This document shows positions 10,682-55,943 of a stretch of 64,000 nucleotides of DNA, piece after piece (position 1 is the first letter of the stretch; every line of letters starts with the position of its first letter). The notes beneath the pieces are model-generated. The model made no database searches and was not told the DNA's origin. It saw only the letters and a list, made by a program, of their open reading frames with translations. The DNA comes from Siphonodentalium dalli (lineage: Eukaryota > Mollusca > Scaphopoda > Gadilida > Siphonodentaliidae). The position numbers and the translations under genes were made by a program. The stretch lies in the NCBI GenBank assembly GCA_032622095.1, contig CP136066.1, positions 170,758,664-170,822,663 on the forward strand. The letters run 5' to 3'.

Positions 10682-12629
10682 TAGTAGAGGCTCTTATGTA
10701 CTCCCGTGTGCACTTTGTGAAGAAATACAGCGACTATGCCAATCACTGTGTAGGAACTGTTACATCGGAAATCGTTCTATCGCCGGTAGTGTGATGGTTC
10801 TTGCCTGATTTGTTACGGTTCCTGATGATTGAAAATAATCATTTATGTGACAAAATCACGCATAATTATAGATATCTTGAATATATTAAACTTTCCTGAA
10901 CGAACAGAGGCTGCAGAAGTGCCGTGTTATCGAAACCTGAACTCTAGACCACAATTAACTCGGTATTAGCGAGTTAATGCGTAAATATCAACATGTTACC
11001 ACTGAAAATCAAGCCACGTGGACGCAATTTCTTTGTTTTTCGTGGCGTATAAAATATGAAACACTGACTATAAAGTGTACCCGTGTTATTCTTTTGTAAA
11101 ATAGCTGAGAAAGTATCCCGATAGGGGTTGATAATTGGGAGCTGTGACCTCGTAATCAACACGGGTGCGTGTTACGGTTCTATTTCAAACCCATCATGGC
11201 TGTGACGGTTCTGTCCATGAGATTTATTCGAACGATTTCTGCACTTGGGTCCGAAAATCGTCTTGTGTATCTGACATTTTAAACCAAATAATGACTGTAG
11301 CTTATGTAATTTGCATAATAGAACAGGTATATTAAGAAATAACACAATAAATACATAATACGGGAGATTAAGTGACATTAATAGGCAGAAATAAAATATT
11401 GAAAGTCCCGATGAGTAAAGTATCATAATCATGCCCGCCTATATAAATGACCAATGGTAATATAAATCTACCCTCAGGAGAATATGATATGTTATATTCA
11501 TTTACTTAATCTGGGCATTATTGAAAGATCCAGGTGTGACAATATTTCAATGCCATGCAGCGCCATCATATTTCCTCCTCTGAAGTCCGCCTGAGGGACA
11601 TTTACACATGTTTGTCGCCCAGACATGAATATAACTTATGAAATCACATTCAACTGTTCACTTATAGGTTATGACGTGATTGGGGTGGGGGGGGGGGGGG
11701 TCTTGGGAGGGGGTGCTTAATTGGTGTCTATCCCCAACTTTGGTCAAAATGTTCAACAGTTACAAATTTCTTATCTTACAATAGATTGGTTTGAAATTTA
11801 ACACCAACAATATGTTGAAATTGTTCTCTTAATTTGATTTGACAACAATTTAATAGTGGGGATTTTGTCGTTTTTAGACTAACATTTGCATACTTTCCTA
11901 CACTTTAAACATGTAATCAACCATATTTGACATATACAAATGGACACCTCTTCTTTAGACTTGATCCAAAACTCATGATGGGCGGACTTGAAGTAGGGAG
12001 CAGGTGTGATCTAGTTTTCTATATCACATTTACCCCCCCCCCAATTGGCAAGAAACTGGTTTAATGGACAAATAATCTAATTCCATTTAATTAGTATGCT
12101 TTGTATTAAATAATGTATGCTCTTTTGCAAAATAAATCATCTCTCTCTCCATCTGTTGGGAACATTTCCAATCTTGTGGGGTGGGGGCGCCAGGTTGGAA
12201 ACTTCCAACACTTGGGAATCTTGAAGCCAGTCTATATGTTTTTTGCAATTTTCAGGTTCAGATATCCACATTTTCTCACTGGGCCCATGTATCCTGAGTT
12301 TCTCCCCGGTTTGCATGGTGGCCAATCAAAGGCTACTGATCAATTCACTTCAGAATGGTATACAATCTAGAGCTATAATGTGTCATGCAGTTGGGGAAAA
12401 CCAAAGCCCAGGCCTTGTGCATGAGTTTGATCTGTTTCAAGGGGATGGTGAGGTTGGAAATTCCAAGGTGGACGCCCCAACATTGGATACCCTCCAGCCC
12501 ACGTCCCTGCTCACTTGACACGTTAGCAGCGAGGAATAATAATGTGACTTGTAATAGCCAGGTTCAGACACCCATAACACTAATTTTCAATGATTCATTT
12601 GTATGAATGTTTAGCTAATAATTCAAACA

Positions 12630-12934
12630 ATCTGTTACTGCATGTTGAATTTAATAGCTGAGCATTCCTACAAATGAATCAATAGGATTCAAGTCGCTGC
12701 TCTTTATAGCACATTTAGTCATCAAAGAATTAACATCCATATAATAATATTTGTAACTGCATGATTCTTTTCTCTTTTTTATATGTTACTGCTTGTTTAA
12801 CTTAATAGCTAAGAATTCCTACAAATTAATCAATATGATTCATGTCAATTCTCATTACAGCGCATTTAGTAACCAAAGGTTTAACATCCATATAATAATA
12901 TTTGTAACTGTAGGATTCTTTGCTTTTTTATATC
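12630..12934 (+). repeat. ~153-bp tandem duplication
   Basis: Two diverged copies (about 12630-12782 and 12783-12934) share TTAATAGCT..ATTCCTACAAAT and ACATCCATATAATAATATTTGTAACTG; a third, decayed copy may start near 13000. The repeat lies within the 5.9-kb TIR element. Confidence 0.75.
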
Positions 12935-13189
12935 TTCTATTAAAAAATCTGAGATCCCTAGTCAATCTAAAATATGATTGAATGGAAGATTACCGTGCTT
13001 GTATATGCTTTAATAGCTGCATATTCTAGAATTTAACCTAGATAATCAGCATCCAGCAAACGGATGCCCCACATAAACTTAATAAACTGCGTAATCAGAG
13101 CATTGTATGGGTGTCAACTAACTTTTAACGTCTTATTTTTGGCTTTTTGTTGAGTAAAATACGTCTACGAAAATAGACAACACTAGCCG

Positions 13190-13700
13190 ATGTGCCCGGT
13201 CCTATTCGTCCGGGCTACTTAGGGATTTTTTTGTGATCGTCTCCGCCTGGGCAAACTATTGTTCGATCGGCCCGGAAACATGCCTGTATGAGCGAATATG
13301 GTCAAGGTCAAGGACATGGTCGCACGTGAAATTGGACCCATCCATATTGTTCCCGGGATCAAAGTAGGCCTACATTATACCAAATTTGAGTCGGATTGGT
13401 CGAGGTCCAGAAACATGCCTATATGAGCGAGGTCAAGGTCAGGGACACGGTCGCAAGTGAAATTGGACCCGCCCATATTGTTCCCGTGATCAAAGTAGAA
13501 CCAGCTACCAAATTTGAGTGGGATCGGTCGAGGTCCAGAAACATGCCTATATTGGCGTATTTGAGCGAGATCAAGGTCAAGGACACGGACGCACGTGAAA
13601 TTGGACCCGCCCATAATGTTATCCGGATCAAAGTAGGCCTACACACCAAATTTGAGTCGGATCGGTCGAGCAGTTTTTCGAGTCTATAACACAAATACAT
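13190..13700 (+). repeat. ~131-138-bp tandem repeats with TCAAGGTCA motifs, and dispersed repeat
   Basis: Three units contain GTCAAGGTCAAGGACA (13301), GGTCAAGGTCAGGGACAC (13431) and TCAAGGTCAAGGACAC (13571), each followed by GTGAAATTGGACC..CCCATA and CCAAATTTGAGT..GGATCGGTCGAG. The array ends in CAGTTTTTCGAGTCTATAAC and short ACATACAT repeats, a retroelement-like tail. The upstream part (about 13195-13290, TAGGGATTTTTTTGTGATCG) recurs at 46573-46670, so this is a dispersed family. Confidence 0.8.
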
Positions 13701-13739
13701 ACATACAGACAGAAGTTCCAAAATATATAATAGATAAAA

Positions 13740-15996
13740 TACAAGACAGATACCTCATGACAATACCTCATATGACTTTTCTTTTTACCATCAAGCACTT
13801 GCTGCAATAAAAGCTTCTAGGACTGATAAGACAGCATTAGTGGTTGATATTCAGAAAGTGAAGCATTCAATTTCAACGCTAAATAAAGGGAAAGCCGAGG
13901 ATATTTTTGGACTTTCTGCCGAACACTTTCGATATGCTAGTGACAATTTTATATTCATATTAACTGAATTAATCAACGTGATACTTCAGCATAACACTAT
14001 TCCGACTGCATTGAAAACTGGTCTTCTCAACCCTATCTACAAGAACAAAGGCGAAAAAAATAATTCTGGAAATTACAGAGGAATAACTGCTACCTGTCCT
14101 ACTTAAAATTATTGAAGTTATCATTCGTGACGAGCTAAGGAAACACACTTTACCTGAACAATCACCTTTACAAAGAGGTTTCACAGCAAATGCTTCTCCT
14201 TTAAATGGTGCATTCCTGTTAGAGAAAGCAATCAGGGAGCAATATGACAACAAAACAGATGTATATATTGCCTTACTCGATGCCAAGTCGGCTTTTGACG
14301 TTGTTTGTAAAGAAATTCTTCTTCGGAAAACTTTTATTACATCAACTGACTACAACACATGGTGTACTGTTGATGATCTTCATTCTGACTGTTCTTCTGT
14401 CGTCAAATGGGCATCCAAGAAATCTGCAAGTTTCCAAATATTACAAGGGGTGCGGCAAGTTGAAATTTTTAGCGCCGATCTTTACAAACTTTATATTAAT
14501 GATCTCCTACAACGTTTATCTGATCAACACCTGGTGATATTGCCCTTGTGAGCTCAAACGTCACTGATCTACAAACTCTCATTAATGTGGCATACCAGTA
14601 TAGCAGAGAACACCGGTATTTGCTCCAACCTAAGAGTGTCATTATCAAAGTATCCCAACGTGGAAAGAAGAAGCATCCAGTTGAATCCTTCACTATTGAC
14701 AACATAAATATGCCCAATGTTGACTCATCCTCACATTTAGGAATTATTCGTGCAACATCTATCAATAAAACTCTCCTGGAAACAATAAACAACAATATCA
14801 AAAAGGCTCGTTGGACTGCTTATGTTCTTATGCCTCTTGGATTCCATGGTGAGAATGGCCTGGATCATCAAACATGTATATATCTATTTAATATTTATGT
14901 AGCGCCTGTTTTATCTTATGGATGTGAAGTTTTAATTCCATCTCCGAAGCATGTGAAATTATTGGAGTGCTTCCAAAATAAATTTATCAAACATATTTTA
15001 ATACTATCAAATGCAGTTGCAGACATATATATTTTATCGGGACTTTTACCTATTCAGGGACAAATCGACAAAAAAGTACTTGTTTTATTCAACAATGTTT
15101 GTAGACAACCTGACTCTGCCATTGAAAAAAACGCTCGCCCATCGTCAACTTCTACTTAAAGATGTCAACAGCAATAGTTGGTTCTCAGAGGTCAGAAAGC
15201 TATTTCTAAAATATGATTTATCGTGCATATATGAGGAACTAACATCACCACACAGCAAAGAGGAATGGAAATATCTAGTGAAGACAGCAGTTAAATTGTA
15301 CTGGAAAGATCGGATTGTCGCTGAAGCTGCTTTCTACAGTACTTTATTTTAATTCATATTCGTATAATCCTGGGATAGTCAACCAGCTTCTGAAGACCCG
15401 CAGGGAGCAACATCGATCCTGTTACAAACTATCAACCAAACTTCGACACGTGACAAACCTTACTACATACTCACTCGGTATACGCCAACAGCGATACAAT
15501 AAAAACTCAACTTCTGATATATGCTTGCTGTGTAATGAGGAATCTGAAACCATACAACACTTTCTACTGCACAGTACATATTTACAACCTGTCAGAGATC
15601 GGACACTCCCTCTAGTAGCTGAATGTTATCAGATTATATTCACTTCTGAATTCAAACTGTGTACAGATGAAATAAAAGTACAATTCCTGACAGATCCTTC
15701 ATCACTACCTGGCATAGAGACTGCTGATATCCACACTATTGAGGACCTGCATCATCATTCATCCGACCTCTGTTACTACCTTCGATGTGTACGACACAGA
15801 ACACTGTCTGCAAAAAAGTTACTTTTATAAATTAATACATCTGCGAATGCTGAATCTGCACGTCTCCACCAAATCTTTGTTTTATCTAAGTATTATTTTA
15901 GGCTGTACATATGTATATACCACAGTTAATTGCGGATTTTACTCGCAACACGAGGTTGTCCTAAACGGACGGTTAGATAGCTAAAAGAAGAAGATA
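13740..15996 (+). pseudogene. Dead non-LTR retrotransposon (LINE) reverse transcriptase
   Basis: The readable pieces lie in several forward frames and join into a LINE RT. From 13840 it reads KGKAEDIFGLSAEHF and NSGNYRGIT. After a frameshift near 14100 comes LLDAKSAFDVV (the first catalytic aspartate block), then QGVRQ and LYKLYINDLL near 14500. The YxDD catalytic box has been lost: the frame jumps to DIALVSSN near 14540. A thumb and C-terminal region follows (14548-15159), ending in a zinc-knuckle-like segment CLLCNEESETIQHFLLHS near 15500-15570. The 3' end is an AAGAAGAAG tract at about 15984-15994. No apurinic endonuclease domain is visible upstream, so the copy is 5'-truncated as well as frameshifted and catalytically dead. 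The clade is not determined. It is nested inside the 5.9-kb TIR element. Confidence 0.88.
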
Positions 15997-16644
15997 ACTC
16001 TATATATCCCGTCTACGCTCACGCTTTACGAAGTCCAGCGCAATGAAATTTCACTATTGTTAACCGGCTGTTGACTCATGGAAATGTCGGGCCTGCAAAA
16101 CGCGTTATTTTTCAAACTAGCTGGCGACTTTGTGAATTTTGATAGGCGTAACACAGCTTATTGGATAAGCATAGAAAGGCAGTGTAATTCGTTGAAATTA
16201 ATGACAAGTGGTGCAAATTTCAACTTAATGCATAGTTTGTTGTGTTTATCTTTGTATACTTTCACAAAATTGGCAGTTTGAACCATGTACCATGGCAAAT
16301 ATTAGCAATAGTTTTACCCGTATAGAACGATTAATGGGGATAGAACCGAATCGATCGGGAGAGAACCCAAACAATAATCAAAATTCGCGATTCTTGTCGT
16401 TGTTATGACTCGCACAATGAATGTTTCGTTATTAACCCGCTCATTTGTGCGACAGATTGTTATGGGATCGAAAATAACTAATCGAATTATCACCTAGATG
16501 CCTCAAAGTTGCGTTTTAACTGTTAAAAAGTCGTGAAAATGTATAATTTAGATCAGCAAGAACCGTCACAAATCAGGCAAGAACCATCACAGACCGGCGA
16601 TAGAACGATTTCCGATGTAACAGTTCCTACACAGTGATGCCAAT

Positions 16645-18060
16645 GACGTTGCTTGATATCTCAGGCACCAGAAAACAAATGTTAGACTCCTTGGGGTCGC
16701 GACTGGGTGGATTTATGACGTCATCAAGATGGCCGCCATACACTATTTCACAGTATGCACTGAGTCAGTTTGATTAATATCTACTTGTGAATTTATTATA
16801 GAAATTTGATTATCTCACCACTGACGTGAAACTCATACACCATACTTCCATTTGACAGAATAAGTGGCCACCATAAACCAAGATGGCCGCCAAAATGGCG
16901 ACCGAAATTCGGAAAATTGATGATTTTTCACACTTTCCTCTTGAATCATTAACCGATGTTTGAAATTTGTAACGAATAAAGACCTAAATTTGAATAAATA
17001 CTAGTATCCAACCATTTCTACAACATAATATGTCATACTTGTGATCTCATTCCTGTCAGCTATCTTTAAAATGTGAATTCAAAAATGTGCTATGAAAGTT
17101 AACCAAAATTCAATTATGTGATTCTAGCCAAGAGTTGAACAGAAAATAACTGAATTTGATGAAGATAATGTAAAAATGTTTTAAATATGTGAATTGCCAT
17201 GTAGTTACACTGAAAATAGTGCATTTTCGTTTAAGATGGCGGCCAAGATGGCTGCCAAAATGGATAAATCACCAAAATCTGTCTAATTTTTATTGATATC
17301 ACTCATTTGTTGGGGAAAAGTAAATATATGTGAATATGTGCTACTTTTTCGTGGAAATCCATGGACTTATGAAATAATTTGTAAATTTGGTGAACCATAT
17401 AGCTGCTTATACCAGAGAATTCAACAGAATTATACCACGAACATTAAGTCAAATCATATTAATGGCAGCCACACAAAATTGAAGAATGGGCACTGAGTGA
17501 GGAAGAAAATTTAACACAGAAAATGAAAAATATATCTACGGCAATGATAAAGTTGCACCAAGCTTCCTTTTGAAAGAACAAGATTGATAAAAAAACCAAG
17601 ATGGCTGTCAAAATGGCGACCGAAATATAGAAATGTCTTGAATTGTTACACATGCCCCTTACATCATTTTCGGTTATTCGTAAACTGTGGCAAGTAGGAC
17701 TTGTCTTTATTTTTATCAGTTATGACACCAAGTACTTTGGAAAACATAGTATGCTGTAATTTGTGTCTAATTGTTGTCCATACTCCGAAAAATGCAAATT
17801 AAATAATGCGCTATGCAATTTTACAAATAAACTTGCTTCTCGAAGTTCTAGATTAACATTGGACAGAAATAGGCATAATAAAATAAACAAACGTGTACAC
17901 AGTTTTAAATATCGTTAGTGTCATTCAATTACACTCGACATTGATCTATTTGACCCAAGATGGTCGCCAGAATGGCCGCCAAAACGCACAGTTATAAAAT
18001 GTCACAAATGCTTATATTCCCAAACGGCATTTAGCAAAGGAGGTGGATATATTCCCCCAA
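16645..18060. repeat. P1 left arm, outer part: ~359-bp units with AAGATGG motifs
   Basis: AAGATGGCNGCCAAAATGG-type sequences occur at 16726, 16880, 17233/17245, 17598 and 17957, giving a spacing of about 353-365 bp after the first. The region is the inverted homologue of about 26440-27640: for example the GGTCGCGACTGGGTGGATTT near 16695 pairs with AAATCCACCCAGTCGCGACC near 27568. Identity is high at the outer end and drops inward. No coding sequence is apparent. Confidence 0.85.
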
Positions 18061-21000
18061 TCTAAATTAGATACTATCATGTTAAGGTATATTGTGACTA
18101 TTTTTGACCAAAGATAGTTTGTTTATAATCGAGAATATATCATAATGGACTCTTAGACACCTAACATGAAATTGCCCAATATAATTTAAACGACCCTGCC
18201 CGTTTCCTGGGAAGGAAGTCAAACCGGATATGTGCTGACTGTATCATTATAAGAGCATAACGAGTACTCGAAAGAATCCATGCAGTCATAATACAGACCT
18301 AAATCCAACGTTATTGCTATATTATTTCGTTTGGGGCAGATCTACTTTATTCGTTGCCTATTCTTGATTAATTGTTGACCACGTTGATTTCGCCCGGCCA
18401 CAAAAATTATCACACATTGACTTTATCGAAGTCGAAGTTGCATTGCTATCATACTGCCACCGGGAAATATACTTGCTCAACTTTGAAATACACAGGCATT
18501 ACATGTTAGTGCAAACATTATTTCGTATCTAATTATGAAAGAGTTGTGTCTAATAAGATACAATAAGGGGAGATTGCATTGTACATTTTCTGTTTTTTTT
18601 GCATTTCTGTGTTTCATCACCGAAATTCGTTTGAATAGTTGAGACATTGTCACACTTCTCAAGACGTGAGTCAGCACATGTACCACTCTTGTAACTTCTT
18701 CCAATAGATGGTCACATTGATTGTAGTCTATCTACAACCAACTCACCTTAGCAACTACAGTTGAATTACAAACTCATATCGCAAGCTAACAGAGCTCACC
18801 ACAAAACTCTCCGACTGCATATCAGAGACTCCATATAGATTGTTTGCTTCGGTTGTGGAACGGAGAGTCCATAATACAGATTTAATAAATAAATTTCAAT
18901 ACGGTCGCTGACCTCATAGCAGATACATTGCATATTCGCTTCGATGTAGTCTAACAGAACTGTGCACATAACCGAGTTAATGCTTGTCAGTTTAGAATAT
19001 GTCAAAACATCCGTATCGGGAAAAAATAGCATATGGTTTGTCATTTTCCATGTCTAGTCCAGCAAGTGACAATAACGGCTCCTCAACTTCTTCCTGGTGT
19101 CAACGAAAATATATCGTGAAATCAAAATGCCTGGTGCCTAGATATTCAGTGATGAAATACCTCATCGAAACTACCAGAAACTCATCTTTGGTCCATGCCA
19201 TATGATGGTGCATCGAAGTACTGAATACAGTGACGGGTCATCAAGATCATTTAATGGAACGTTTATTAAGATTTCTTGCAAAACGTCCACATGGGGACAT
19301 TCGTTAGCATTATACACCAACTGTTATTTCGCAGAAAGTAAATATCTTCGAATCACAGAAACCCCGCAATCTCGAACGAACTCCTTTAATTGTCCATCGA
19401 ACAAATGTAGTTTATAGAATTTGCTGGCAAACCGTACAACCATAATAGTCGGATCCACAAGTAGTCCAATTACAAGCTTGGAATATAGATAGTGCGCAAA
19501 AGTTGGAAGTAATTGATAACAATGTTATGCTTGAATTGAGAGAAGATTGTGGATTGTTAGCTATTTGAAGATTCCATAACTGAAAGAAGGTATAAGATTT
19601 CAACGTTTTACGACCTGATTTTTCTGCAGACGTGATTTCATTGTAGTGGGATATAAAATGTTTCTGTATAAAACATCTGGAAAGAATACTAAAAACTTTC
19701 CACCCAATAATAATACATGTACCTCAATAGCCAAGTCGAACTGTGCATTGGTGCGAGAAATTATTATCAATTGTATCTGGAACATTACCGATAGCCGATA
19801 CAATTACAGAAATGCAGACATTTAAAGAATGTAGTTTATAGAATTTGCTGGCAAACCGTACAACCATAATAGTCGGATCCACAAGTAGGCCAACTACAAG
19901 CTTGGAATATAGATTCTGCGCAAACGTTGGAAGTAATAGATAATAATGTTACGCTTGAATTGAGAGAAGATTGTGGATTGTGAGCTATTTGAAGAGTCCA
20001 TAACTGAAGGAAGGTATAAGATTTCAAAGTTTAACGACCTGAGTGTTCTGCAGACCTGATTTCATTGTAGTGGGATATCAAATGTTTCTGTACAAAACAT
20101 CTGGAGAGAATACTACAAACTTTCCACCCAATAATAATACATGTACCTCAACAGCCAAGTCGAACTGTGCATTGGTGCGAGAAATTATTATCAATTGTAT
20201 CTGGAAGATTACCGATAGCCAATACAATTACAGAAATGCAGGCATTTAAAGAAAATTTGGTGTGAATTTGTTTCTTGTATGACATTTTGTTGAGACCGCA
20301 TATCGCAAGCAGGAAAGAACTTCGATAACACATGTGACAGATATGACATGGGTGTATCTAATATAAACTTGATGAGTGCATAAGTTCTGCACAGTAAGAT
20401 GGGGATCATACACGGAACGAACTTGCAGTATATGCGATGTCCAGAAAACTATATCTGTGGAACTCAAATACACATGTATACCAATTGAACTCATTATATG
20501 AGGCTATCTTCCTATCCTAGCTCAATTAAAATCAGCCACGCTTTCGCAAATCTTGTGTGTGGAGTCAGTGAGTTGACATATGAGCTGTCCAGAGCTCCAC
20601 AGCAGTTTCTGTTTTGGTACGAACCTGAACATTCATAATTTATCTCTAGTCGCTATAGATCGCATGTAATAAGCAGAGGTCTGGTGGAAAACCGCCAATA
20701 CAATTCTTTTTGGCAGAAGACACATAGGGCGCACATCTGAACGCTCTCGTTTTGGTAGTCTGCGATAAAGCAATTACTGTCATATAATCCCCTGATGCAC
20801 ACACAATTTGAACTAGATGTTATTCAAGGACGAGCAATTGTAAATTTTCTCAGTTTCACAAAAGTATACCCCCGTATTTGCGTACATTTATATTAATAAG
20901 AACGAATCACACAAATATTAGCTCCTATTCTTATATTTGGACTTAGTATACACTAATTATTAAGCTTGTTACCATGGAAAATGTCTGTAATGTCAACGTA

Positions 21001-21195: not shown

Positions 21196-24100
21196 TAGTC
21201 CAGGAGATATTGGTAGACCTCTGCACCCCTCCCCCAGGACTTAACTTCACCCCACTAATTTTCTTCCTTAAGGTCTCCTCTAATTTTTTTCACTTTTTAA
21301 CAAGAACAAAAAGTGGCCGCAGAGACTCCAGACAAGATGGCGTCCATCATGGCGGCCATTTTTTTTAAATGCACCAGGTCTCTTTGATCGCCATTATAGT
21401 AAAGATGATAGCACATGCGGTCTTGTTTTCCGCTCGATTCGTCATGCTAATTTATAACCCTTACAAATAGCCCAAAATCCGACACCATAATCCAATATGG
21501 CGGCCAAGATGGCCGCCGAAATGTGAAAATATGCTATTTTTCTGACATGTTACCACCTTTCGTTTGTCTCTGTGGGAAAATGTTGGCATCTTTGCGTCAT
21601 GTTATACATTTATCATATAGCGGAGTCATTGGTGAACACATGGGGACCATAATATGTATTCATTGCGGGATATTTTTGTCCGATATCACGTTTTCCCAAA
21701 TGCCGGTATCATAGGCCAAAGCCGAATCTCCGTTAATAACGCGATGTTATGTTTCGAATCAATGAATGTTATTGCTATTATAACAACACCCATGCATATA
21801 TATTTGCAGGAGATACTCGAGCTATGATTCCTCTTATACCTGAGTTGAGGAATATTTACCCAAATCCAAGATGGCGGCCAAAATGGCCACCAGAAATAAA
21901 AAATCGCCGAAAATCGCTGATTTTAACATCAGTGAACATTATTGTCATGACAACTCCACACCTGCTTACTATTGTAAGTTGGGAACACTTAGGCGAAGAA
22001 CTTTCCTTGTACCATATCCAAATAAAAGTCCCCCAAATCCAAAATGGCGCCCACAATGGCGGACAGATTTTGAAAAATCACCGAAATTCCCTCATATTCA
22101 CATCATTGGGCATTATTGTCGAGACAACTCCACCCATGCTTACAATTGAGTTGTAAATACTGAGGTGAAGTAATTACATTACATCTCATGCAATAAATTG
22201 TTTTCCAAATCGAAGATGGCGGCCAAAATGGCGACCGAAATTTGAAAACAAGTCTACATTACTTTACTTTCTTACGATGGGCGTTATTGTTTCGCGATTT
22301 CTATCCACCATTACATGTTGATATGGAATAGTGACATGAAGTATTCATTAGGGTTTGGCAATTGATACTCACAGCCAAGATCGCTGCTATATTGGCGGCT
22401 AGAAATTGAAAAGAAATCGATATTTTCACATATTAATTTCAACTTTTTGTCATAATATCGGTATGTATGGACGAAACTGTACATACACCATCTACTAGTT
22501 CAACTTAAAGGTATCAAAACGCATAGCATAGCTCGTATCCTTCTGGAAAGATGAAACACCACAATTAATATCGCGATGTGGCATTTCGAAATCCAGTCTC
22601 CACTTAGCGCCGATAATGGCCGTAAGCGTAGGTGCGCCGAATAGTTATATCAGAACAATTACATGATAACAGATTCTGATATGCCACGTCACGTCCATAA
22701 TTATCTGGACCAGCTTCCATTTCTTTGTCTGAAAAATCTAGGTCGCTCACACCGACAAAGTATTCACCACTTCCTGGGAGTAGGGTCCCTCTAATCATAA
22801 CGTTTCAAACAATTCATTTTCCGGTGTCTAGCTTACAGAAGGTCATCTCTATGTATGTGTCTCATACCCATGGGATAACGACATGTACACCTGGCGAACC
22901 AGTTAGCTAGTCACTTCTCAATAGATGGTTCGTCAACTCAGCGAACCCATTGGCATATGTGGACAACTTCGACAGTGTTTCGAAGGTTGCTAGCTGTCTC
23001 ATTCCAGATGTCTATCTGCTAAGGAGAAGACCCTAGTGTACAGACTACCCACACTTCTTGACCATTATCCGAAGCAAACTGTGTGACGCACCGCAGTTGT
23101 CTCGTCGAATATCTCCCAGCAGAGAAGAACAATGCTCGCGGTGCTAGTTTGTGGACATGCGCCATGATAGTGGGAATGAAATGGGCCACTGTATACACCA
23201 CCCCTACATCTGGTGCATGTTTAAGATATCGAATGTCGTGCGTGTCGGTTTTATTTGGTGTGGTAAGATTGTATTTCCACATCCGTTTCGAAGCCTTTCT
23301 GATTCAACTACGTACACTTTTGTCTGGATAATAATATGCTAGCCTCCCTCAAAACAGTCGGATGGACTAAAGGATAATGTCTTTATAGCATGAATGTATG
23401 CGTGTTTTGTTATCCTCTCTCGGGGTTAGTGTCAGTATGTGGGCGGTATTATTCAAGAAAATGTCAGGAACTGTGGTGCATTTATTTCACTATGTATTTA
23501 AAGAACAATTTACAGTCTCGATGGCAATGGCTGTGGCCGTTGGGGAACGCGACCTTTATGATCATATAGCTTTATATATATAACTTTAGAATGTAGTAGT
23601 TAATGTCTCATGCAGGAAAATGGTCGCATTGGTGATGTTACCAAGAAATCACTTGGTGTACCAACGTTTGTTGAACTGAATGCAAGAGCTCATCAACGTA
23701 ACATTCCTCTGGATATTCTTCGCGTTGAACATTTAACCCTTTTGTTGATGGCATTTGTACTTTCTTGAACCATACCACACAACGTGAGTATGACATATCA
23801 ACCAACTATCAAAGGTATCGCCTTTAAGACTACACCCCAGTCTTGGTGGGGCTTATACAGCAGTAGCCAATGGCATACTCCTGGTCCAGTTGTTTAAGAA
23901 CGGCTTCCAAACGGATGGGGACATACAATCTTAGCATACAAGGAAAGCAAAGCCACACATGAGATCCTGTCTGAATCTAAAACATAACAAAATAAGGGGC
24001 GGTGCAGTCATGGTCCAATTTCATTTCCACTATCATGACACATACCCACAAACTAGCACCGTGTGTATTGTTATCATCTGCTTGGATCTGTTCGGTGAGA

Positions 24101-26140
24101 CGTTTGCTGGACGCCAACAAGCTTGTTCTTATGATCATGTTCAAGGAGTTTGGGTATATTATGCATTATGGTCTTCTACGCCTTAGAAATGCATCCGTCA
24201 AATGTCGGGCTTTCAACATTCGAAGCCATATACATAAGTTGTCCGGGTACGTCAGTGCATTAGATGAGTATGTGAATTGATGAACCATATATTGAGATGT
24301 GGCTCTTTGGGAAGATCACCAGATGTACACGTTGTTAACCCCATTAGGTCACCAAAGCTGACAATACGCAGATAGATAGGTCCTTCTGAAAGCTAGTATA
24401 CGCATCGACCGAATACCTGTATAGTGTATCGCAAAAGATGACGCATATACCCCATATGTAGCATCTGAATTATACCATAAGCTATACCACGAATGAAGCT
24501 CGCTAATAATTCCAAGCTTTCGAAACCAACACGTGAGCTGGACACCGGCATATGTATTGTTTGAAACATTCCGATTAGTGGCACACTCCTACAAAGAAGA
24601 GTAGTGAACTGTTGTTATGAGTGAGATAGATTAATCTGACGAAGAGACGGAAACGAGTCTAGATAATGCTGAATGTGGCAATTCAAAATAAGCTCAGGTA
24701 CTGTTGTTTTGAATCTTGGAAGTCATAATATGACTATTCGGCGCACCTATATACGGTTACGGCCAGTATGAGCCCTTAGTGGAGAATGGATTTTGAAATG
24801 CCACATTGCGATTTTGGGTTTTCATCCTTCCAAAAGGCTACGACTTACATTGGAACTAATATATGGCTTATATTATGTACCGTTTCGTTTATACAAATCA
24901 ATATTATGACAAAAAGTTGAAATTAGTATGTGATAATATCGGCTTCTTTTCAGTTGGCCGCCATATTGACTGTGAGTATCACTTGCCAAACCCTAATGAA
25001 TAATTCATACATATCAACATGTAATGGTGGGTAGAAATCGCGATAATGCCCATCGTAAGAAAGTAAAGTAATGTAGACTTGTTTTCAAATTTCGGTCGCC
25101 ATTTTGGCCGCCATCTTCGATTTGGAAAACCATTTCTTGCATGAGATGTAAGGTAATTACTTCACCTCAGTATGTCCAACTCAACTGTACGCATGGATGG
25201 AGTTGTCTCGACAATAATGCCCAATGATGTGAATATGAGGGAATTTCGGTGATTTTTCAAAATCTGTCCGCTATTGTGGGCGCTATTTTGGATTTAGGGG
25301 AATTTTATTTGGATATGGTACAAGGAAAGTTCTTCGCCTAAGTGTTCCCAACTTACAATAGTAAGCAGGTGTGGAGTTGTCATGACAATAATGCTCACTG
25401 ATGTTAAAATCAGCGATTATCGGCGATTTTTTATTTCTGGTGGCCATTTTGGCCGCCATCTTGGATTTGGGTAAATATTCCTCAACTCAGGTATAAGAGG
25501 AATCCTAGCTCGAGTATCTCCTGCAAATATATATGCATGGGTGTTGTTATAATAGCAATAACATTCATTGATTCGAAACATAACATCGCGTTATTAACGG
25601 AGATTCGGCTTTGACCTATGATACCGGCATTTGGGAAAACGTGATATCGGACAAAAATATCCCGCAATGAATGCATATTATGGTCCCCATGTATTCGCCA
25701 ATGACTCCTCTATATGATAAATGTATAACATGACGCAAAAATTCTAACATTTTCCCACAGAGACAAACTAAAGGTGGTAACATGTCAGAAAAATAGCATA
25801 TTTTCACATTTCGGCGGCCATCTTGGCCGCCATATTGGATTCTGGGATCGGATTTTTGGCTAATTTGTAAGGGTTGTATATTAGCTTAACGAATCGAGCG
25901 GAAAACAAGACCGCATGTGCTATCATATTTACTATAATGGCGATCAAAGAGACCTGGTGCATTTAAAAAAAATGGCCGCTATGATGGACGCCATCTTGTC
26001 TGGAGTCTCTGCGGCCACTTTTTTTTCTTGTTAACAAGTGAAAAAAATTAGAGGAGACCTTAAGGAAGAAAATTAGTGGGGTGAAGTTAAGTCCTGGGGG
26101 GGTGCAGAGGTCTACCAATATCTCCTGGACTAACAGGGAT
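21196..26140. repeat. P1 inner palindrome with ~172-bp units, spacer 23250-23940
   Basis: Left arm 21196-23250 and right arm 23940-26140 are inverted homologues: TAGTCCAGGAGATATTGG near 21197 pairs with CCAATATCTCCTGGACTA near 26116. Left-arm AAGATGG motifs sit at 21333, 21505, 21868, 22041 (AAAATGG) and 22213, about 172 bp apart or double that. Identity falls toward the centre, where GTTTCAAACAAT (22801, and inverted near 24560) and CACAAACTAGCACCG (24043, inverted near 23141) still pair. The central 0.7 kb is single copy. It holds a 51-codon open stretch (23613-23765) just after a splice-acceptor-like TCTCATGCAG; I do not recognise it. Confidence 0.85.
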
Positions 26141-27711
26141 TTTTCTCCAGTCGAGTCACCCAATCAGGACATTTGCGATGTACATGTAATGATGGATGTA
26201 ATAAGCATATATTCAGATTTGGATATTTTCAAATAGGTCAACATCAGATGAATGTATCTACTTTTCATGGTTTCTGTTTCCATTCTCATGAAATCTCGGA
26301 TATAAGCAGCTACTGTTCGCAAAATATTCATATTGTATCAGATTGTATCAGCATTCCTAGCACTTTTGTCAACAGGGGAACAAATGTGTTTACCAGTAGT
26401 CACTGAAACCCACCTTAGGAGCGTTATCAATGAAAACTAGCACATTTGGATGATTTCTCCATTTTGGTAATCATCTGAGTCACCATCCTGAATTTAAATT
26501 CATATGGATAATAGTATGTTAATCTAACATATCATGTTTGTCGAATGATTAGATAGAATAATTGATTCAAAATAAGGTTGCTATTAGCCACCGATTTCAA
26601 ACCGCTGTGAATAATTTAAGAGGCGCGAGTGTGAAAAATAATCAATTATTAGAATTTCGGTCGCCGTTTTGGGAGCCATCTTGGATTTTGAGGTCCAAAT
26701 TGCACAGTCAAGAGGAAGTGTGGTCCAATGGTATTATTGGTCGCGAAACATAACCATTGCACTATCTAAATGTTCCCCCCAAACTCAATGCCAACTCTGA
26801 AATTGTTCATGGTTGCCAATTTGATGATTTCATCTCATTTTCGTCGTTTCATTCTCTCGATTTCTTGAGTATAAACATCAATTGTTCACAAACTATTCAT
26901 ATTGTTTCATATCTCCATGTTATTACGCCAACACGGAGCAAATATATTCACCTATATTCACTAAATCGCACATTAGGAGTGATATCAAAGAAAATTTGAC
27001 AAATTTTAGTGATTTATCAATTTTGGCAACCATTTTGGTCGCCATCTTGGATACAGATGCACTTTTTTGGTTGTAATTCTATGGCGATCTATATGTTTAA
27101 ACCTGTTGCAAATATTTGTCATCAAATTCAGCTATTTTCTGGCTAACACTTGGCTCGAATTACAAATTCTATATTTGGTAAAATTTCATAGCATATTAAT
27201 GAATTCACATTTTGACGACATTTTGTAGGAATAATACCCAAAGTATAACATATTATCATGTTCAAATGGTTAGGTATTCAAATGTATTTAAAATTAAGTT
27301 GCTGTTAGCCACCGATTTCAAACAACCGTGAATGTTTTAAGAGACATGTGTGAAAATTCATCATTTTCCCTCACTTCGGTCGACATTTTGGCGGCCATCT
27401 TGGTTATATGTGGTCAATTTTTATGTCAAAGTAAAGCCTGTTATCATAGTATCACAACAGTAGAGAAATATTATATTTCCTACCATAAATTCACTACTAG
27501 CTATTAATCAAACCGATTCAGTGCCTACTCTGAAATTTTGGATGGCGGCCATCTTGATGACGTCATAAATCCACCCAGTCGCGACCCCCAGGTGTCTAAC
27601 ATTTGTTTTCTGATGCCCGAGATATCAAGCAACATCATGAGCATAGTGGCTATATTTCTTCACAAAATGCACACGGGAGCCAAAAAATGGACATAAGAGC
27701 CTCTACCATAT

Positions 27712-37591: not shown

Positions 37592-40500
37592 GTATTGTGT
37601 GGGTCTCATTGATTCTCATTATTATAATTGTGATGAGTTATCTCTTATCAGGTAGTATGTAGGTCGCATTGATCTCATTATTATAATTGTGACGAGTTGA
37701 TTCTCATTATAATTGTGATGAGTTATCTCTTATTAAGTATTGTGTAGGTCTCATTGATTCCCATTATCATAATTGTGATGAGTTATCTCTTATTGAGTAT
37801 TGTGTATGTCTCATTGATTCTCATTATCATAATTGTGATGAGTTATCTCTTATTAAGTATTGTGTGGGTCTCATTGATTCTCATTATCATAATTGTGACG
37901 AGTTATCTCTTATTAAGTATTGTGTGGGTGTCGTTGATTCTCATTATAATTGTGACGAGTTATCTCTTATTAAGTATTGTGTAGGTCTCATTGATTCTCA
38001 TTATAATTGTGACGAGTTATCTCTTATTAAGTATTGTGTGGGTCTCATTGATTCTCATTATAATTGTGACGAGATATCTCTTATTAAGTATTTTGTAGGT
38101 CTCATTGATTCTCATTATCATAATTGTGATGAGTTATCTCTTATCAAGTATTATGTAGGTCTCATTGATTCTCATTATCATAATTGTGATGAGTTATCTC
38201 TTATTAAGTATTGTTTTTGGGTCTCATTGATTCTCATTATTATAATTGTGATGAGTTATCTCTTATTAAGTATTGTGTAGGTCTCATTGATTCCCATTAT
38301 CATAATTGTGATGAGTTATCTCTTATTAAGTATTGTGTAGGTCTCATTGATTCTCGTTATCATAATTGTGATGAGTTATCTCTTATTAAGTATTGTGTAG
38401 GTCTCATTGATTCTCATTATCATAATTGTGATGAGTTATCTCTTAATAAGTATTGTGTAGGTCTCATTGATTCTCATTATCATAATTGTGATGAGTTATC
38501 TCTTATTAAGTATTGTGTATGTCTCATTGATTCTCATTATCATAATTGTGATGAGTTATCTCTTATTGAGTATTGTGTATGTATCATTGATTCTCATTAT
38601 CATAATTGTGATGAGTTATCTCTTATTAAGTATTGTGTGGGTCTCATTGATTCTCATTATCATAATTGTGATGAGTTATCTCTTATTAAGTATTGTATAT
38701 GTCTCGTTGATTCTCCTTATCATAATTGTGTTGAGTTATCTCTTGTTAATTATTGTGTGGGTCTCATTGATCCTCATTATCATAATTGTGACGAGTTATC
38801 TCTTATTAAGTATCATGTAGGTCTCATTGATTTTCATTATCATAATTGTGACGAGTTATCTCTTATTAAGTTTTGTGTAGTTCTCATTGATTCTCATTAT
38901 CATAATTGTGATGAGTTATCTCTTATTAAGTATTGTGTAGGTCTGGTTGATTCCCATTATCATAATTGTGATGAGTTATCTCTTATTAAGTATTGTGTAG
39001 GTCTCATTGGTTCTCGTTATCATAATTGTGACGAATTATCTCTTATTAAGTATTGTGTAGGTCTCATTGATTCTCATTATCATAATTGTGATGAGTTATA
39101 TCTTATTAAGTATTGTGTAGGTCTCATTGATTCTCATTATCAAAATTGTGATGAGTTATCTCTTATTAAGTATTGTGTAGGACTCATTGATTCTCATTAT
39201 CATAATTGTGATGAGTTATCTCTTATTAAGTATTGTGTAGGTCTCATTGATTCCCATTATCATAATTGTGATGAGTTATATCTTATTAAGTATTGTGTAG
39301 GTCTCATTGATTCTCATTATCATAATTGTGATGAGTTATCTCTTATTAAGTATTGTGTAGGTCTCATTGATTCTCATTATCATAATTGTGACGAGTTATC
39401 TCTTATTAAGTATTGTGTAGGTCTCATTGATTCTCATTATCATAATTGTGACGAGTTATCTCTTATTAAGTATTATGTAGGTCTCACTGATTCTCATTAT
39501 CATAATTGTGATGAGTTATCTCTTATTAAGTATTGTGTAGGTATCATTGATTCTCATTATCAAAATTGTGATGAGTTATCTCTTATTAAGTATTGTGCAG
39601 GTCTCATTGATTCTCATTATCATAATTGTGATGAGTTATCTCTTATTAAGTATTGTGTAGGTCTCATTGATTCTCATTATTATAATTGTGACGAGTTATC
39701 TCTTATTAAGTATTGTGTAGGTCTCACTGATTCCCATTATCATAATTGTGATGAGTTATCTCTTATTAAGTAATGTGTAGGTCTAATTGATTCTCACTGT
39801 CATAATTGTGATGAGCTATCTCTTATTAAGTATTGTGCAGGTTTCATTGATTATCATTATCATAATTGTGATGAGTTATCTCTTATTAAGTATTTTGTAA
39901 GTCTCATTGATTATCACTGTCATAATAGTGATGAGTTATTTCTTATTTCGTTTTGTATAGGTCTCATTGATTCTCATTATAATAATTGTGATGAGTTATC
40001 TCTTATTATGTATTGTGTAGGTCTCATTGATTCTCGTTATCATAATTGTGATGAGTTATCTCTTATTAAGTATTGTGTAGGTCTCATTGACTCTCATTAT
40101 CATAATTGTGATGAGTTATTTCGCATTAAGTATTGTGTAGGCTTCAATGATTCTCATTATCATAATTGTGATGAGTTATCTCTTATTAAGTAATGTGTAG
40201 GTCTCATTGATTTTCACTGGCATAATGGTGATGAGTTATCTCTTATAAAGTATTCTGTAGGTCTCATTGATTCTCATTATCATAATTGTGAAGAGCTATC
40301 TCTTATTAAGTATTGTGCAGGTCTCATTGATTCTCATTATCATAATTGTGATGAGTTATCTCTTATTAAGTATTGTGTAAGTCTCATTGATTATCACTGT
40401 CATAATGGTGATGAGTTATTTCTTATTTCGTTTTGTATAGGTCTCATTGATTCTCATTATAATAATTGTGATGAGTTATCACTTATTGAGTATTGTGTGG

Positions 40501-42163
40501 GTATCATTGATTCTCCGTTATCATACTGGTGATGAGTTATCTCTTATTAAGTATTGTGTAGGTCTCATTGATTCCCATTATCATAATTGTGATGAGTTAT
40601 CTCATATTAAGTATTGTGTAGGTCTCATTGATTCTCATTATCATAATTGTGATGAGTTATCACTTATTGAGTATTGTGTGGGTCTCATTGATTCTCCGTT
40701 ATCATACTGGTGATGAGTTATCTCTTATTGAGTATTGTGTAGGTCTCATTGATTCTCATTATCATAATTGTGATGAGTTATCTCTTATTAAGTATTGTGT
40801 AGGTCTTATTGATTCTCATTATCATAATTGTGAAGACTTATTTCTTATTGAGTATTGTGTAGGTCTCATTGATTCTCATTATCATAATTGTGATGAGTTA
40901 TTTCTTATTAAGTATTGTGTAGGTATCATTGATTCTCATTATAATAATTGTGACGAGTTATCTCTTATTAAGTATTGTGTAGGTCTCGTTGATTCTCATT
41001 ATAATAATTGTGATGAGTTATCTCTTATTAAGTATTGTGTAGGTCTCATTGATTCTCATTATAATACCTGTTATGAGTTATCTCTTATTAAGTATTGTGT
41101 ATGTTTCATTGATTCGTATACAAATAATTGTGATGAGTTATCTCTTATTAAGTATTGTGTAGGTCTCATTGATTCTCATCATCATACTTGTGATGAGTTA
41201 TCTCTTATTAAGTATTGTGTAGGTCTCATTGATTCTCATTATCATAATTGTGATGAGTTATCTCTTATTAAGTATTGTGTAGGTCTCATTGATTCTCATT
41301 ATAATAATTGTGACGAGTTATCTCTTATTAAGTATTGTGTAGGTCTCGTTGATTCTCATTATAATAATTGTGATGAGTTATCTCTTATTAAGTATTGTGT
41401 ATGTCTCATTGATTCTCATTATAATACCTGTTATGAGTTATCTCTTATTAAGTATTGTGTATGTTTCATTGATTCGTATACAAATAATTGTGATGAGTTA
41501 TCTCTTATTAAGTATTGTGTAGGTCTCATTGATTCTCATCATCATACTTGTGATGAGTTATCTCTTATTAAGTATTGTGTAGGTCTCATTGATTCTCATT
41601 ATCATAATTGTGATGAGTTATCTCTTATTAAGTATTGTGTAGGTCTCATTGATTCTCATTATAAATAATTGTGACGAGTTATCTCTTATTAAGTATTGTG
41701 TAGGTCTCATTGATTCTCATTATAATACCTGTTATGGGTTATATCTTATTGAGTATTGTGTATGTTTCATTGATTCGTATACAAATAATTGTGATAAGTT
41801 ATCTCTTATTAAGTATTGTGTAGGTCTCATTGATTCTTATTATCATACTTGTGATGAGTCATCTCTTATTAAGTATTGTTTAGGTTTCATTGATTCTCAT
41901 TATAATACCTGTTATGAGTTATCTCTTATTAAGTATTGTGTATGTTTCATTGATTCGTATACAAATAATTGTGATGAGTTATCTCCTACTAAGTATTGTG
42001 TAGGTCTCATTGATTCTCATTATCATACTTGGGATGAGTTATCTGTTATTAAGTAGTGTGTAGATTTCATTGATTATTATAACAATTATTGTGACGAGTT
42101 ATCTCTTATTAAGTATTGTGTAGGTCTCATTCATTCTCATTATTATAATTATGATGAGTTATT
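37592..42163 (+). repeat. 60-bp satellite array 2
   Basis: About 76 monomers of the same family and orientation as array 1, but more diverged and without its 50-bp monomers. Length variants differ: 54-bp monomers near 37930-38070 (CATTATAATTGTGACGAG), 61-bp monomers with TTCTCCGTTATCATACTGG near 40510 and 40690, and a 1-bp insertion near 41665. The array ends ...GATGAGTTATTTA, the same monomer phase at which array 1 ends. The long repetitive reading frames are a by-product of the 60-bp period. Confidence 0.97.
40921..41660 (+). repeat. 360-bp six-monomer higher-order repeat in array 2
   Basis: Six distinctive monomers (with TATAATAATTGTGACG, TCTCGTTGATTCTC, TATAATACCTGTTATG, GATTCGTATACAAATAATTG, TCATCATACTTG and a standard one) recur in order at 40921-41280 and 41281-41640. 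A partial, drifted third set continues to about 42050. A separate 181-bp two-copy duplication lies at about 40441-40800. Confidence 0.88.
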
Positions 42164-51999: not shown

Positions 52000-52560
52000 C
52001 ACTTCTCACAACCACATCTGCACAACTTCGTACATGGAAGTTTGCTTCTTGAACATTTGCACCTGGAACAAACCGATTTGCAAACACATTTAATCAACTC
52101 TGTGCACTCTCTAGCTGCTTCTGGGTTGTCATCCAAACAGTAACAAAAGATCCGCCAATCAATTTCCATCCAAAGACGTCAGGTGCTGGAAACTTTACAT
52201 GTGCTATGGGGCTTACTAGTACAGTCCAGATACCAGCCTGATATATATATATATATATATGTTGAACTGTGCTGAACATTTCATGTATTGCTTCATTAAC
52301 TAAAGTCAGGTTCACAGATTTGTCATAAACAATCACATCGAAATGCTAAATACTCTCAAACAGTGGCGATGAAACATCAAGAACCACACACGGATTCCTC
52401 GTATTGGCATCAAGCATTCTGTGAGCTAAGCTTTCCAAGCATCCCAAAATTGCGCTTACCCTTACCAAGGAAAAAGGGAGTTGAGTCGCATCCTGATATC
52501 GGGTGGAATATTGGAAGTACAGTTGAATTTTTGTTAGCCCATTGAATTGCACGTATCAAC
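52000..52560 (-). pseudogene. Same transposon-borne gene, left-arm copy (C-terminal part)
   Basis: Reading the minus strand from about 52520 outward: FHPISGCDSTPFFLGKGKR, then VIVYDKSVNLTLVNEAIHEM (near 52330-52270), YQAGIWTVLVSPIAH and PAPDVFGWKLIGG (to about 52150), then LIKCVCKSVCSRCKC followed by SKLPCTKLCRCGCE (to about 52025). The nine-cysteine C terminus is better preserved here than in the right arm. Frames shift between pieces and a (TA)n microsatellite at about 52242-52260 sits inside the gene. The N-terminal part present in the single-copy centre is absent from this arm. Confidence 0.7.
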
Positions 52561-53005
52561 TATGTTGTATGTAACATGGGGTTTAGATTTCTCGAAAGAC
52601 AAAGAGTTTCAAATGTTTGCATTGAAAAAGCATAGCATACAGATGTCCCAACATGACCACGATAATATATGTGTCAACAGTGTGAACAATAATCGAAGAA
52701 TTATCGGTTTGTAGCATATGAAATATATGTTCTTCTCACACGAAAACCAGCGGTTCCCCCATCTATATCGAAAGTGGGCGAAAGCAGGGGTGGTAATAAA
52801 TGTGACATCCTAAGCTGCATGAAGGTCCCATCCGATTCAAACTACATAGACACTGCAGAGCCAAATCCAAAGGTCGAGTGTAAGGTGTTCGACGGGGGGT
52901 GCTCTGATACACTTACTGAGACATGAGGTCGGGCATACCTTCTCAATGTATATCAGCACAACGTTTATACATATGTTATGATGCAGCTCCCAGATAGTAG
53001 AAGAA

Positions 53006-54799
53006 TTGACTTGGTTTTGGACAGGTAAATATAGGTTAGTATCAAAACAGGAACATGAGAGAAACGTGGTTGTGGCATTCGATGTAAGGTTGGGGCTTAC
53101 CACAAAAATTCCAACGAATTGGAATGACTTTCTAAGAAACACCACCAACAAGCAAGTATTGTTTGCATTGGTCAATGAATGTCTCTTTAAATTGGAAACC
53201 CTACCAAAGAAAACTATCTTCACAACGGAGGATGATAACGCGGTCCTAATTTGGAACCTATTCTCTTTGGATGCACATATGAAGAAGCTGACAGTAGATT
53301 AGTCGGACATATATCTCATATGCTGCAACTCATTATTTATCGATTATTGTTCAAGGATATTTACAAGGATATTATCGTGATTCTAGTGTGACATATGCAT
53401 GCTAAGCTACTACTCCAATGCAAAGATTTGGAACTGTGTCTTTCGACAAGTCTAAGTCCCATGTTATCCGCAACATAGTTGATATGTACAATTCAATTAG
53501 GCTCAGAAAATTCAACTGTGCTTTCAATATTCCATCATTTCCATGTGATATCAGGATGCGACTCAACTTCCTTTTTCTTTGGTAATGGTAAGCGCACATT
53601 TTGGGATGCTTGAAAAGCTTACCCAGAGCTAACAGAATGCTTGATGTCAATTACGAGGAATCCTTTTGTGGCACTTGATGGTCTATCACCACTATTTGAG
53701 TGTATTTAGCATTTCGTCGTGATTGTTTATGACAAATCTGCGAACCTGACCTCAGTTAATGAAGATAGACATGAAATGTTCAGCAAAGGCCGTGCACATG
53801 AACAGTTACCACCAAAGAAATTGTGCTACTAGTATACATCAGGCTGGTATATGGACTGTAAGCCCCATAATAGATGCAAAGTTTCCAGCACTAGACTCAC
53901 TGGGGGGAAACTGTTTCACAAGAGTCGATTCTATCGCCTTTTCGGTTTTGTCTCTATCGAACTAAGGCCCGACTCTTTCGCGATTAAACACAACTGTTTT
54001 CAAAAGTTTTGACCGCCATTTATACACTAAATATCAAAACAGAACTATTTTCTAAACAAATATCCGTAGATTAGGTCTTTGCTCGTGCTTATTGATGATA
54101 ATAATGCGAAATCAGCTATTTTTGTGCACACTTTGAGGCATAATGCGTTTTTGTGCATTTCCTATGTAAATTAAGCAGCAATTTGATGATAAGTTTATCG
54201 ACCTTGATACTTTTAGTTGGCTGGAACATGTCTCATTATGTGATCGAACACCAGGACATTATATTAACCTATAATGTTCGATCATAAAACCTAACAAGTT
54301 CAGCCCAATTTAAATGTGATGAGGCTGAAAAGCTGAGCATCAAACTGTTGCTCAATTCTCGTGGGAAATACACACAAATGCACGTCTCTAAATGTGCACC
54401 ACAAGCAGCTATTGCATTGCTATCATCAATAAGCACGTACAGAGACCTAATCTGTCGGTTGTTATTGAAGAATACTTTCTGTATTGATATTCAGTGTATA
54501 AACAGCCTATCAAAACTTTGAATATTTTTTAACAAACCGCGAAAGAGTCTGAACTTAATTGATAGAGACGAAACCGGAAGGGTGATAGAATCGATTCTGG
54601 TGAAACAGTTTTCCCCCCAGTGTGACTACTTCGGGTGAAAATTTATTGACGATTCTTTTGTTCTTGTATGGTTGACAACCCCAGACGTGGCTAGAGTGTG
54701 CACCGAATTGATTAAATTTGTATGAAATCGGTTTGTTCCAGGTGCAAATGTTCAAAAAGCAAACTTCCATGTACGGAGTTGTGCAGATGTGGTTGTGAG
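53006..54799 (+). pseudogene. Transposon-borne EEAD.R / GCDSTS / Cys-rich gene, right-arm copy
   Basis: Pieces follow in family order but in shifting frames. 53006-53302 contains IPTNWNDFLRNTTNKQVLF. About 53249-53390 reads CTYEEADSRLVGHISHML and ends at a TGA. About 53540-53650 reads FHVISGCDSTSFFFGNGKR with an in-frame TGA after FWDA. Near 53830-53870 there is a TSGWYMDCKPH-like trace of the YQAG..W segment. After the nested 725-bp insertion, 54734-54799 reads CSRCKCSKSKLPCTELCRCG, a dense cysteine knuckle. I recognise the motif set from repetitive, unnamed invertebrate proteins. The EEAD..R plus downstream acidic pattern resembles FEN/XPG-type nucleases, which leads me to suggest an Academ-type transposase; that assignment is inference. 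This copy is certainly dead. Confidence 0.7.
53898..54622. mobile_element. 725-bp inverted-repeat insertion nested in P3 right arm
   Basis: The left end CACTGGGGGGAAACTG and the right end CAGTTTTCCCCCCAGTG are inverted. The arms run on through CGATTCTATC and GACTCTTTCGCG to a centre near 54260. The corresponding place in the P3 left arm has no such sequence, so it is an insertion or MITE. The target duplication is not clear (AGACT on the left, TGACT on the right). Confidence 0.8.
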
Positions 54800-55943
54800 T
54801 AGTGAATTGTTCAATTCAGTTTATTAAAACAAAGTGTATTTTCAAATTTACTGATCCCATCTTCCCACCACATGGCACCCTGGAGTATATCTCAGCAACA
54901 ATATAACACTCAAAAGTATACAAATGCATATATATTATTGAATCTGCGCTATTCGCATGATTGTGTTTCATGTTCTGTTGCTGAAATAATTGAGGACACT
55001 ATATGATACAAGGAAATAATATTATTTCTTACTCCGAACTCAACTATACTTTCGGGTATACGCTTCAATCATTTTGTGCATAATTGGACATAAAACACTG
55101 AATTTAAGTATTGGTAATTTGAATACGAGGCCTGATGATGAAGATATGTTGCAGAATACCTTCCATATGGTCTTGTTTTTTAGAACTAAATTGAGTTTGA
55201 TGAGCATGGGGTCTGTCATTTAGTGTTTCCTAATTTCGTGGTAAATCCACTACTAAATTGATTTTTTATTTGTAAATATCTCGACATACAAATTTTTATT
55301 CAATTGATCCAATCATATAGTAGTGTCGCAAATAGAATTGATGACATCAGGGTCATTCACGGTTGGTTATTAAGCATTTACAGAATGAAACACAGTCTGA
55401 GAATAATTTCATTTATTTTATATAGCACATATTCTACCTCACATTTCTACCAGAACGAACAATACTACTTCACCTTTAATGTGCATAACTCTTCCACAGA
55501 AGTTATTCCATCGAATAATGAACACATAGTTGATATCTCTCTTATATTATCTCGAAATTGTAAAGTATTTATTTTTTAAATAAGGATAAAAAAACAATTT
55601 CTCATGTTTTGGCCGCCATTTTGGCATCCATCTTGAATAATTGTGGCCATTTTTCAACTAAAAGTCGCGGTTGTTATTCTATGAACACTAATATTAGATA
55701 GTGTTGAGGAATTCGTTATGTTTACCATATCAATCAAGAAGCAAATCTATTAGGTGTGCCACCGTCAAACCGGCGGCCATCTTGGACGCCATCTTGAATT
55801 TTCGGCTCTACGTCGGTCAAAAAGTTGGTTCTTGAGAAAATTCCTAGACTAGAGATGCTGTCCTACAAGATACTAAAAAATGGCGCTTTTATCCGACTTG
55901 TATCGATCGGAGCATTTTTTGTCACTAACTACCTACACTAAAA

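Follow-up and report, generated by a model that had tools for sequence, protein, structure and literature searches.

Foldback transposons with TAG...CTA ends and repeated YY1-type motifs in the genome of the scaphopod Siphonodentalium dalli

The window analyzed here is a 64,000-nt stretch of the genome of the scaphopod Siphonodentalium dalli (GenBank assembly GCA_032622095.1, contig CP136066.1, positions 170,758,664 to 170,822,663, forward strand), in which the original prediction had placed three giant palindromic foldback transposons with TAG ends, 3-bp duplications and arrays of a YY1-type motif. Self-comparison of the window mapped the palindromes as claimed, and their ends and flanks were confirmed: P1 (10682-27708, TAG-ended, target site duplication TAT/TAT), P2 (29512-34679, 5,168 bp, TAT/TAT) and P3 (51126-55940, 4,815 bp, AAA/AAA), no strand being assigned to any of the palindromic elements. 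A fourth member, P1b (21196-26132, 4,937 bp), lies within P1 and had been overlooked; its tips read TAGTCCAGGAGA and its flanks ACA/ACA. The left arm of P1 is interrupted by another nested element (10744-16636, 5,893 bp) with tips CACTGTGTAGGA and an exact 8-bp target site duplication, ATGCCAAT. This element encloses a relic of a long interspersed nuclear element reverse transcriptase, and related stretches were present in genome loci L007 and L011. A giant 17-kb palindrome was ruled out, because 10.8 kb of P1 consists of the two nested insertions; P1 measures 17,027 bp as found and 6,186 bp without them, so the element group has a normal foldback size. Each of P1, P1b, P2 and P3 is the insertion of a multicopy transposon that ends in TAG...CTA and is flanked by a 3-bp target site duplication. 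Their structure is that of foldback elements, with long inverted arms containing repeated units and little or no coding middle, and nine open reading frames from the cores of P1, P1b and P2 gave nothing credible when compared with Pfam (best E 0.1).

The right tip of P1 departs from the common pattern by reading TGG in the window copy. Of the 41 other genome rows matching this end, the alignment begins at query base 3 in 40 and at base 30 in the last, and TAG was read at three fetched P1-family tips; from these alignments the TGG looks private to the window copy. The P1 arms are 73.6% alike over approximately 1 kb, and the middle of the element holds a 424-bp tandem duplication (19404-20253) with copies 94% alike. 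A second, outer pair of inverted arms, 90% alike and with P3 inside, was designated P4 (42414-59130; tips TACCATGAGCC and TAGTCCATGAGCC); based on its flanks, TAT/CAT, and its differing motif, it was left tentative and not accepted as a full member. An A/T tract is located approximately 17-30 bp inside the right tips of P1, P3 and P4 (CCATTTTTTGG, ACAAAAAATGC and CCAAAAATGG), while their left tips are without it. P1b has no such tract near its tips and P2 has a similar one at both.

A copy of the P1 flanks without P1, an empty site that demonstrates the insertion of P1, was identified at 7927-9821 (+), paralogous or allelic, with its junction TAT at 8444-8446. Positions 7927-8446 match the left flank of P1 at 99.2% over 520 bp, and the right flank is matched by 8444-8943 (97.4%) and 9019-9821 (96.6%), the intervening 75 bp (8944-9018) of the empty copy being missing from the occupied one. 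The empty copy reads CCTATC-TAT-CGGCAG and the occupied copy CCTATC-TAT-(P1)-TAT-CGGCAG. The two flank copies may have arisen by tandem duplication, or the assembly may have joined two haplotypes. Since they differ by 0.8-3.4% and the aligned P1 arms by approximately 26%, arm divergence is no clock for the insertion.

The source genome (2.23 Gb, 9 contigs) was searched with the element end sequences, which returned 418 to 1,882 first-look candidates per family across four families; these are candidates and not confirmed copies. The best 40 of 1,837 candidates for the P1b end were scored; besides the window copy they represent 33 further places, both arms being matched at six of these. All 33 were fetched, and both ends, with tips TAGTCCAGGA, were recovered at 31. 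Twenty-nine of these copies are 4.86-5.07 kb long, one is 2.36 kb and one 5.77 kb; no stop-to-stop frame exceeded 149 amino acids in the six copies checked. The P3 end gave 41 rows from 418 candidates, 35 of them at 98-100% identity including the window copy, and all six fetched places have the same 4.6-4.8-kb palindromic structure with its disrupted gene and internal insertion; one of them (L054) is approximately 215 bp short. For the P2 end 40 rows at 97-100% were obtained from 1,882 candidates, and for the P1 right end 42 rows from 1,416 (40 at 97-100%, two at 81-83%). Duplications were tabulated for the P1b and P3 families and were exactly 3 bp in 28 of 31 P1b copies (15/17 and 13/14 in two batches) and in four of six P3 copies. 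For these two families, the predicted recurrence of the boundaries and of the duplication length held in the source genome. The 36 exact duplications, window copies included, are AT-rich yet varied, with TGG, GAT, GGA, CCT, CTG and CGA among those of P1b.

A different arrangement was found on contig C2 at 55.53-55.55 Mb (55532536-55544322, L059-L061), where three P1-family tips in the same direction lie 5.85 and 5.88 kb apart. At both junctions (CTCTACTAGTAGAGG or TTCTACTAGTAGAGG) the tips abut, sharing TA, and there is no target duplication. This one array could be explained by a circle or dimer, joined at its tips, that inserted and then underwent unequal exchange.

The motif shared by the arms is a 12-bp unit, AARATGGCNNCC, of YY1 type, which frequently occurs as a twin, two in a row 12 bp apart. 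The sequence AAGATGGCG was counted 14 times across the window, with 13 of the occurrences within the P1-P3 elements as had been predicted; the average over 10 first-order Markov sequences was 0.3. Distances were counted from the tip, and some second twin members score low. In the P1 left arm (16645-17900, +) motifs are found at 144, 298/310, 651/663, 1016/1028 and 1375/1387, and in its right arm (26654-27708, -) at 154, 308/320, 661/673 and 1027/1039. The left arm of P1b has them at 139/151, 299/311, 673/685, 846/858 and 1018/1030, that of P3 at 136/148 and 298/310, and that of P2 at 705 and 1033/1045. A relative of P1b at locus L044, 71-77% like it over the first 200 bp, has sites at 136, 299/311 and 653/665. 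The first site at 136-144 and the second at 298-299 are therefore common to P1, P1b, the L044 relative and P3, and P1, P1b and the relative also share one at 651-673. By sequence comparison, the long inverted arms carry the repeated motif in a register that is conserved in P1, P1b and P3. At the sites compared, right-arm motifs lie 9-11 bp further inward in P1 and P3 (9-12 bp across P1, P3 and P4), in P1 and P3 owing to a short A/T-rich insertion close to the tip. In P4 the arms repeat different motifs, the X-box-like TTTCCATGGCAA and TCAAGGTCA, with the first CCATGG 140 and 152 bp from the tips; as TTTCCATGGCAA stands at the same place of approximately 140 bp, position may count for more than the precise motif.

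In 20,000 random placements, the spreads of the first and of the second sites were never both matched, a result in which independence is overstated, as the L044 relative was counted as a separate type though related to P1b. The intervals between sites fit a 176-bp period (1 of 5000 permutations). Both tests used left arms and hand-picked sites, and the random placements kept a minimum spacing of 140 bp. When the motifs were masked, alignments between types fell within the range of 60 shuffles in nine of ten pairs, the left arms of P1 and P3 being slightly above it (34 vs a maximum of 32); unmasked, nine of ten pairs exceeded the shuffle range. Within P1b (first 1,140 bp, 36 arms from 18 of 32 known copies) the motif columns are 99.1% conserved vs 97.8% elsewhere, a value equalled by 19 of 1139 shifted masks. 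In a global alignment of 1.2 kb between P1b and the L044 relative, 59% of the positions outside the motifs were identical, as were 71-72 of the 96 motif columns, figures that carry no unrelated-sequence baseline.

P3 carries the relic of a transposon gene, and is the only element in the window that matches this relic by tblastn. The C-terminal part of a transposon protein is present at 52790-53930 (+) as the segments EEADSRL, GCDSTSFFFGNGKR and SVNEDRHEMF, broken by stops and frameshifts, and its Cys-rich tail at 54650-54800 (+) as KSVCSRCKCSKSKLPCTELCRCGC. An inverted second copy of the coding region occupies 52002-52730 (-) in the left arm, continuous with the terminal arm, and a palindromic insertion (53892-54628, no strand assigned) is present also in the six fetched copies. 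As both arms contain coding relics, P3 probably goes back to a coding element whose 3' part was copied in inverted orientation and whose remainder was lost. Two P1b copies appear, from their arm sequences, to show later steps of arm evolution. In the 5.77-kb copy (L043, 3986-9757) one arm has gained a further terminal segment of 0.9 kb that matches the left end at 98% identity, and in L016 the arms are 99.1% alike vs 85-94% in the 17 other P1b copies compared.

The transposase was sought by way of known superfamilies. CACTA and Harbinger elements likewise make 3-bp duplications. CACTA/EnSpm tips begin with CACTA or CACTG, and this group was ruled out by the TAG...CTA tips; PIF/Harbinger uses a TWA-type target and was ruled out by duplications that are AT-rich yet not fixed. 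The relic segments of P3 may be of the C-terminal protein type typical of AcademX. The gene was tentatively filed under Academ (AcademX) on this resemblance and the duplication length, and since every sequence test of this filing was negative it remains a lead. Duplications of 3 bp (28/31 P1b copies, 4/6 P3 copies and four window elements) agree with the 3-4 bp given for AcademX and the 3 bp given for Zator in excerpts of PMC10045372. That paper credits the two lineages of Academ with a helicase and a nuclease, the nuclease being encoded by AcademX; excerpts of PMC10294476 describe a bivalve-specific amplification of Academ. A Mutator-type foldback element was rejected, because Tetris, placed in Mutator by its authors, makes 8-10-bp duplications (excerpts of PMC4079207).

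We propose that P1, P1b, P2 and P3 are non-autonomous foldback derivatives that depend in trans on a single group of transposases, for which AcademX is the likeliest candidate. The arms would have begun as an inverted duplication of one end of an element, and more duplication and conversion would later have enlarged or homogenised them. A YY1-like protein of the host, or a transposase reading the same sequence, would bind the phased motifs, which might assist the recognition, pairing or transcription of the two ends. This account as a whole, comprising foldback insertions, one trans-acting transposase group and phased motifs aiding the ends, is considered probable.

Several results weigh against it. 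The P3 relic had no match in Pfam or in the protein database, and only spurious matches to recA fusions in PDB. Homology to XPG/FEN1 nucleases was rejected, since 853 of 2000 shuffled sequences aligned to FEN1 equally well. No intact source gene turned up, although the source genome was not searched for one, and P3 holds C-terminal relics only. P2 is without the first two motif sites, none scoring at least 8 being present in its first 700 bp. Exact 3-bp duplications are lacking in three P1b copies (L016, AAG/GAC; L026, GTA/ATG; L041, TTT/TCT) and in two P3 copies (L053, GAG/TAG; L057, GTA/TAA); for L026 a 5-bp ATGTA repeat fits the flanks. In addition, identity in register, motifs included, is in excess for P1-P3 (0.357 vs a mean of 0.274) and P1-P1b (0.307 vs 0.269), so that shared ancestry may by itself account for some of the register. 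The grouping of the elements as one foldback group is supported, with tips, 3-bp duplications and register common to P1, P1b and P3; P2 shares the tip, the duplication length and the motif but not the first two motif positions, and its standing as an equal member is not supported.

Descent alone would mean that the register was merely inherited from one repeat-armed ancestor, few indels having preserved the spacing without any function. The direct repeats of modules in the arms of P1, P1b and P2 are consistent with this, as are the in-register excess just given and the likeness of P1b to its L044 relative at the tip. The masked alignments, nine of ten within the shuffle range, argue instead that sequence was mostly lost while motif and spacing were kept, and the motifs are more conserved than their surroundings both within P1b and against the L044 relative (71-72 of 96 columns vs 59% elsewhere); inheritance without function is accordingly judged rather unlikely. 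A somewhat stronger competitor, possible though not favoured, is that the motif is the binding site of the transposase itself, in the manner of subterminal repeats, its likeness to YY1 sites being coincidental. Its concentration in the arms, mostly as direct repeats, its fixed register to the tip and its conservation above the surroundings all agree with such a role, and excerpts of PMC4079207 describe additional transposase sites in the repeated arms of Galileo. The motif equals, however, the YY1 consensus that is functional in the terminal inverted repeats of ProtoRAG. The different motif of P4, TTTCCATGGCAA, at 140 bp fits an interchangeable host factor, but the shared ATGGC core fits the transposase as well.

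That unrelated foldback families converged on TAG ends and 3-bp duplications is improbable. The arms of P1, P2 and P3 have little in common outside the motifs, and only P3 matches the coding relic, which would agree with separate origins; the tip, duplication length, motif and register are nevertheless jointly common to P1, P1b and P3. The related possibility that the arms are unrelated repeats merely sharing a motif, raised in the original prediction as a refutation, was not borne out, the motif being at fixed tip distances in P1, P1b, P3 and the L044 family. Palindromes can arise as library artefacts, and an assembly or hairpin artefact was considered on this ground; with aligned arms that differ by 10-26%, and with P1b and P3 structures that recur at many loci with their own flanks and duplications, the chance of this is practically negligible. 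The proposed trans-mobilised foldback group is retained as the best explanation.

The window contains several further features. One 60-bp satellite (ATTCTCATTATCATAATTGTGATGAGTTATC...) forms two arrays, at 1-7930 (approximately 133 copies) and 37697-42162 (approximately 75 copies). Tandem repeats at 28986-29478 and 13258-13670 are rich in TGACCTTGACC / TCAAGGTCA, a nuclear-receptor-like motif. An open frame of 426 amino acids with Mab-21 domains (Pfam E 1.4e-11) was identified at 35404-36684 (-). Scans of viral contigs for the P3 protein and the twin motif gave no match.

Among known systems, the foldback elements Tetris and Galileo of Drosophila resemble the elements found here in having long arms with internal repeats, a mostly non-coding middle and likely mobilisation in trans. 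Tetris arms reach 1,735 bp and are built of units of approximately 220 bp (excerpts of PMC4079207), whereas the present elements differ from it in their 3-bp duplications, their TAG tips and a YY1-type motif in a register that crosses families. With AcademX they share a duplication length within its 3-4 bp, in the excerpts cited above, but no intact transposase was seen in them. The inverted repeats of lancelet ProtoRAG hold GCCATCTTG, the reverse of CAAGATGGC, which is bound by YY1; lancelet YY1 represses ProtoRAG transcription and transposition and promotes joining (excerpts of PMC7481187). A YY1 site inside inverted repeats is common to both, but ProtoRAG is a RAG-type transposon, and here phased arrays of sites extend over approximately 1 kb and are combined with TAG tips and 3-bp duplications. 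By analogy, the arrays could recruit YY1 for pairing or silencing the ends. In a more specific model, a cut-and-paste transposon group has recruited a YY1-like host protein as a structural partner at its ends, with sites kept at set distances from the tip and approximately one nucleosome repeat apart in families that have otherwise diverged in sequence. This would make the arms phased protein-DNA scaffolds and the case a second capture of YY1 beside ProtoRAG; it is judged rather unlikely at present. A weak negative came from the titles and abstracts of the open-licence literature, where neither Academ-type foldback elements nor phased YY1 arrays in transposon ends were found among the matches listed.

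What is new here is a YY1-type motif at near-constant distances from the tips of families that are otherwise barely alike, which hints, at the level of sequence, at a host DNA-binding protein. It offers a testable reason for the repeat-built arms of foldback elements, namely that regulatory or architectural sites are held at set distances. P3, with its inverted copies of the end of a transposon gene, would represent the origin of a foldback element caught in the act. Given 418 to 1,882 unconfirmed first-look candidates per family, these families may seed thousands of YY1-type sites, and, should YY1 serve here as it does in ProtoRAG, capturing host proteins may be a strategy to which transposon ends have turned more than once.

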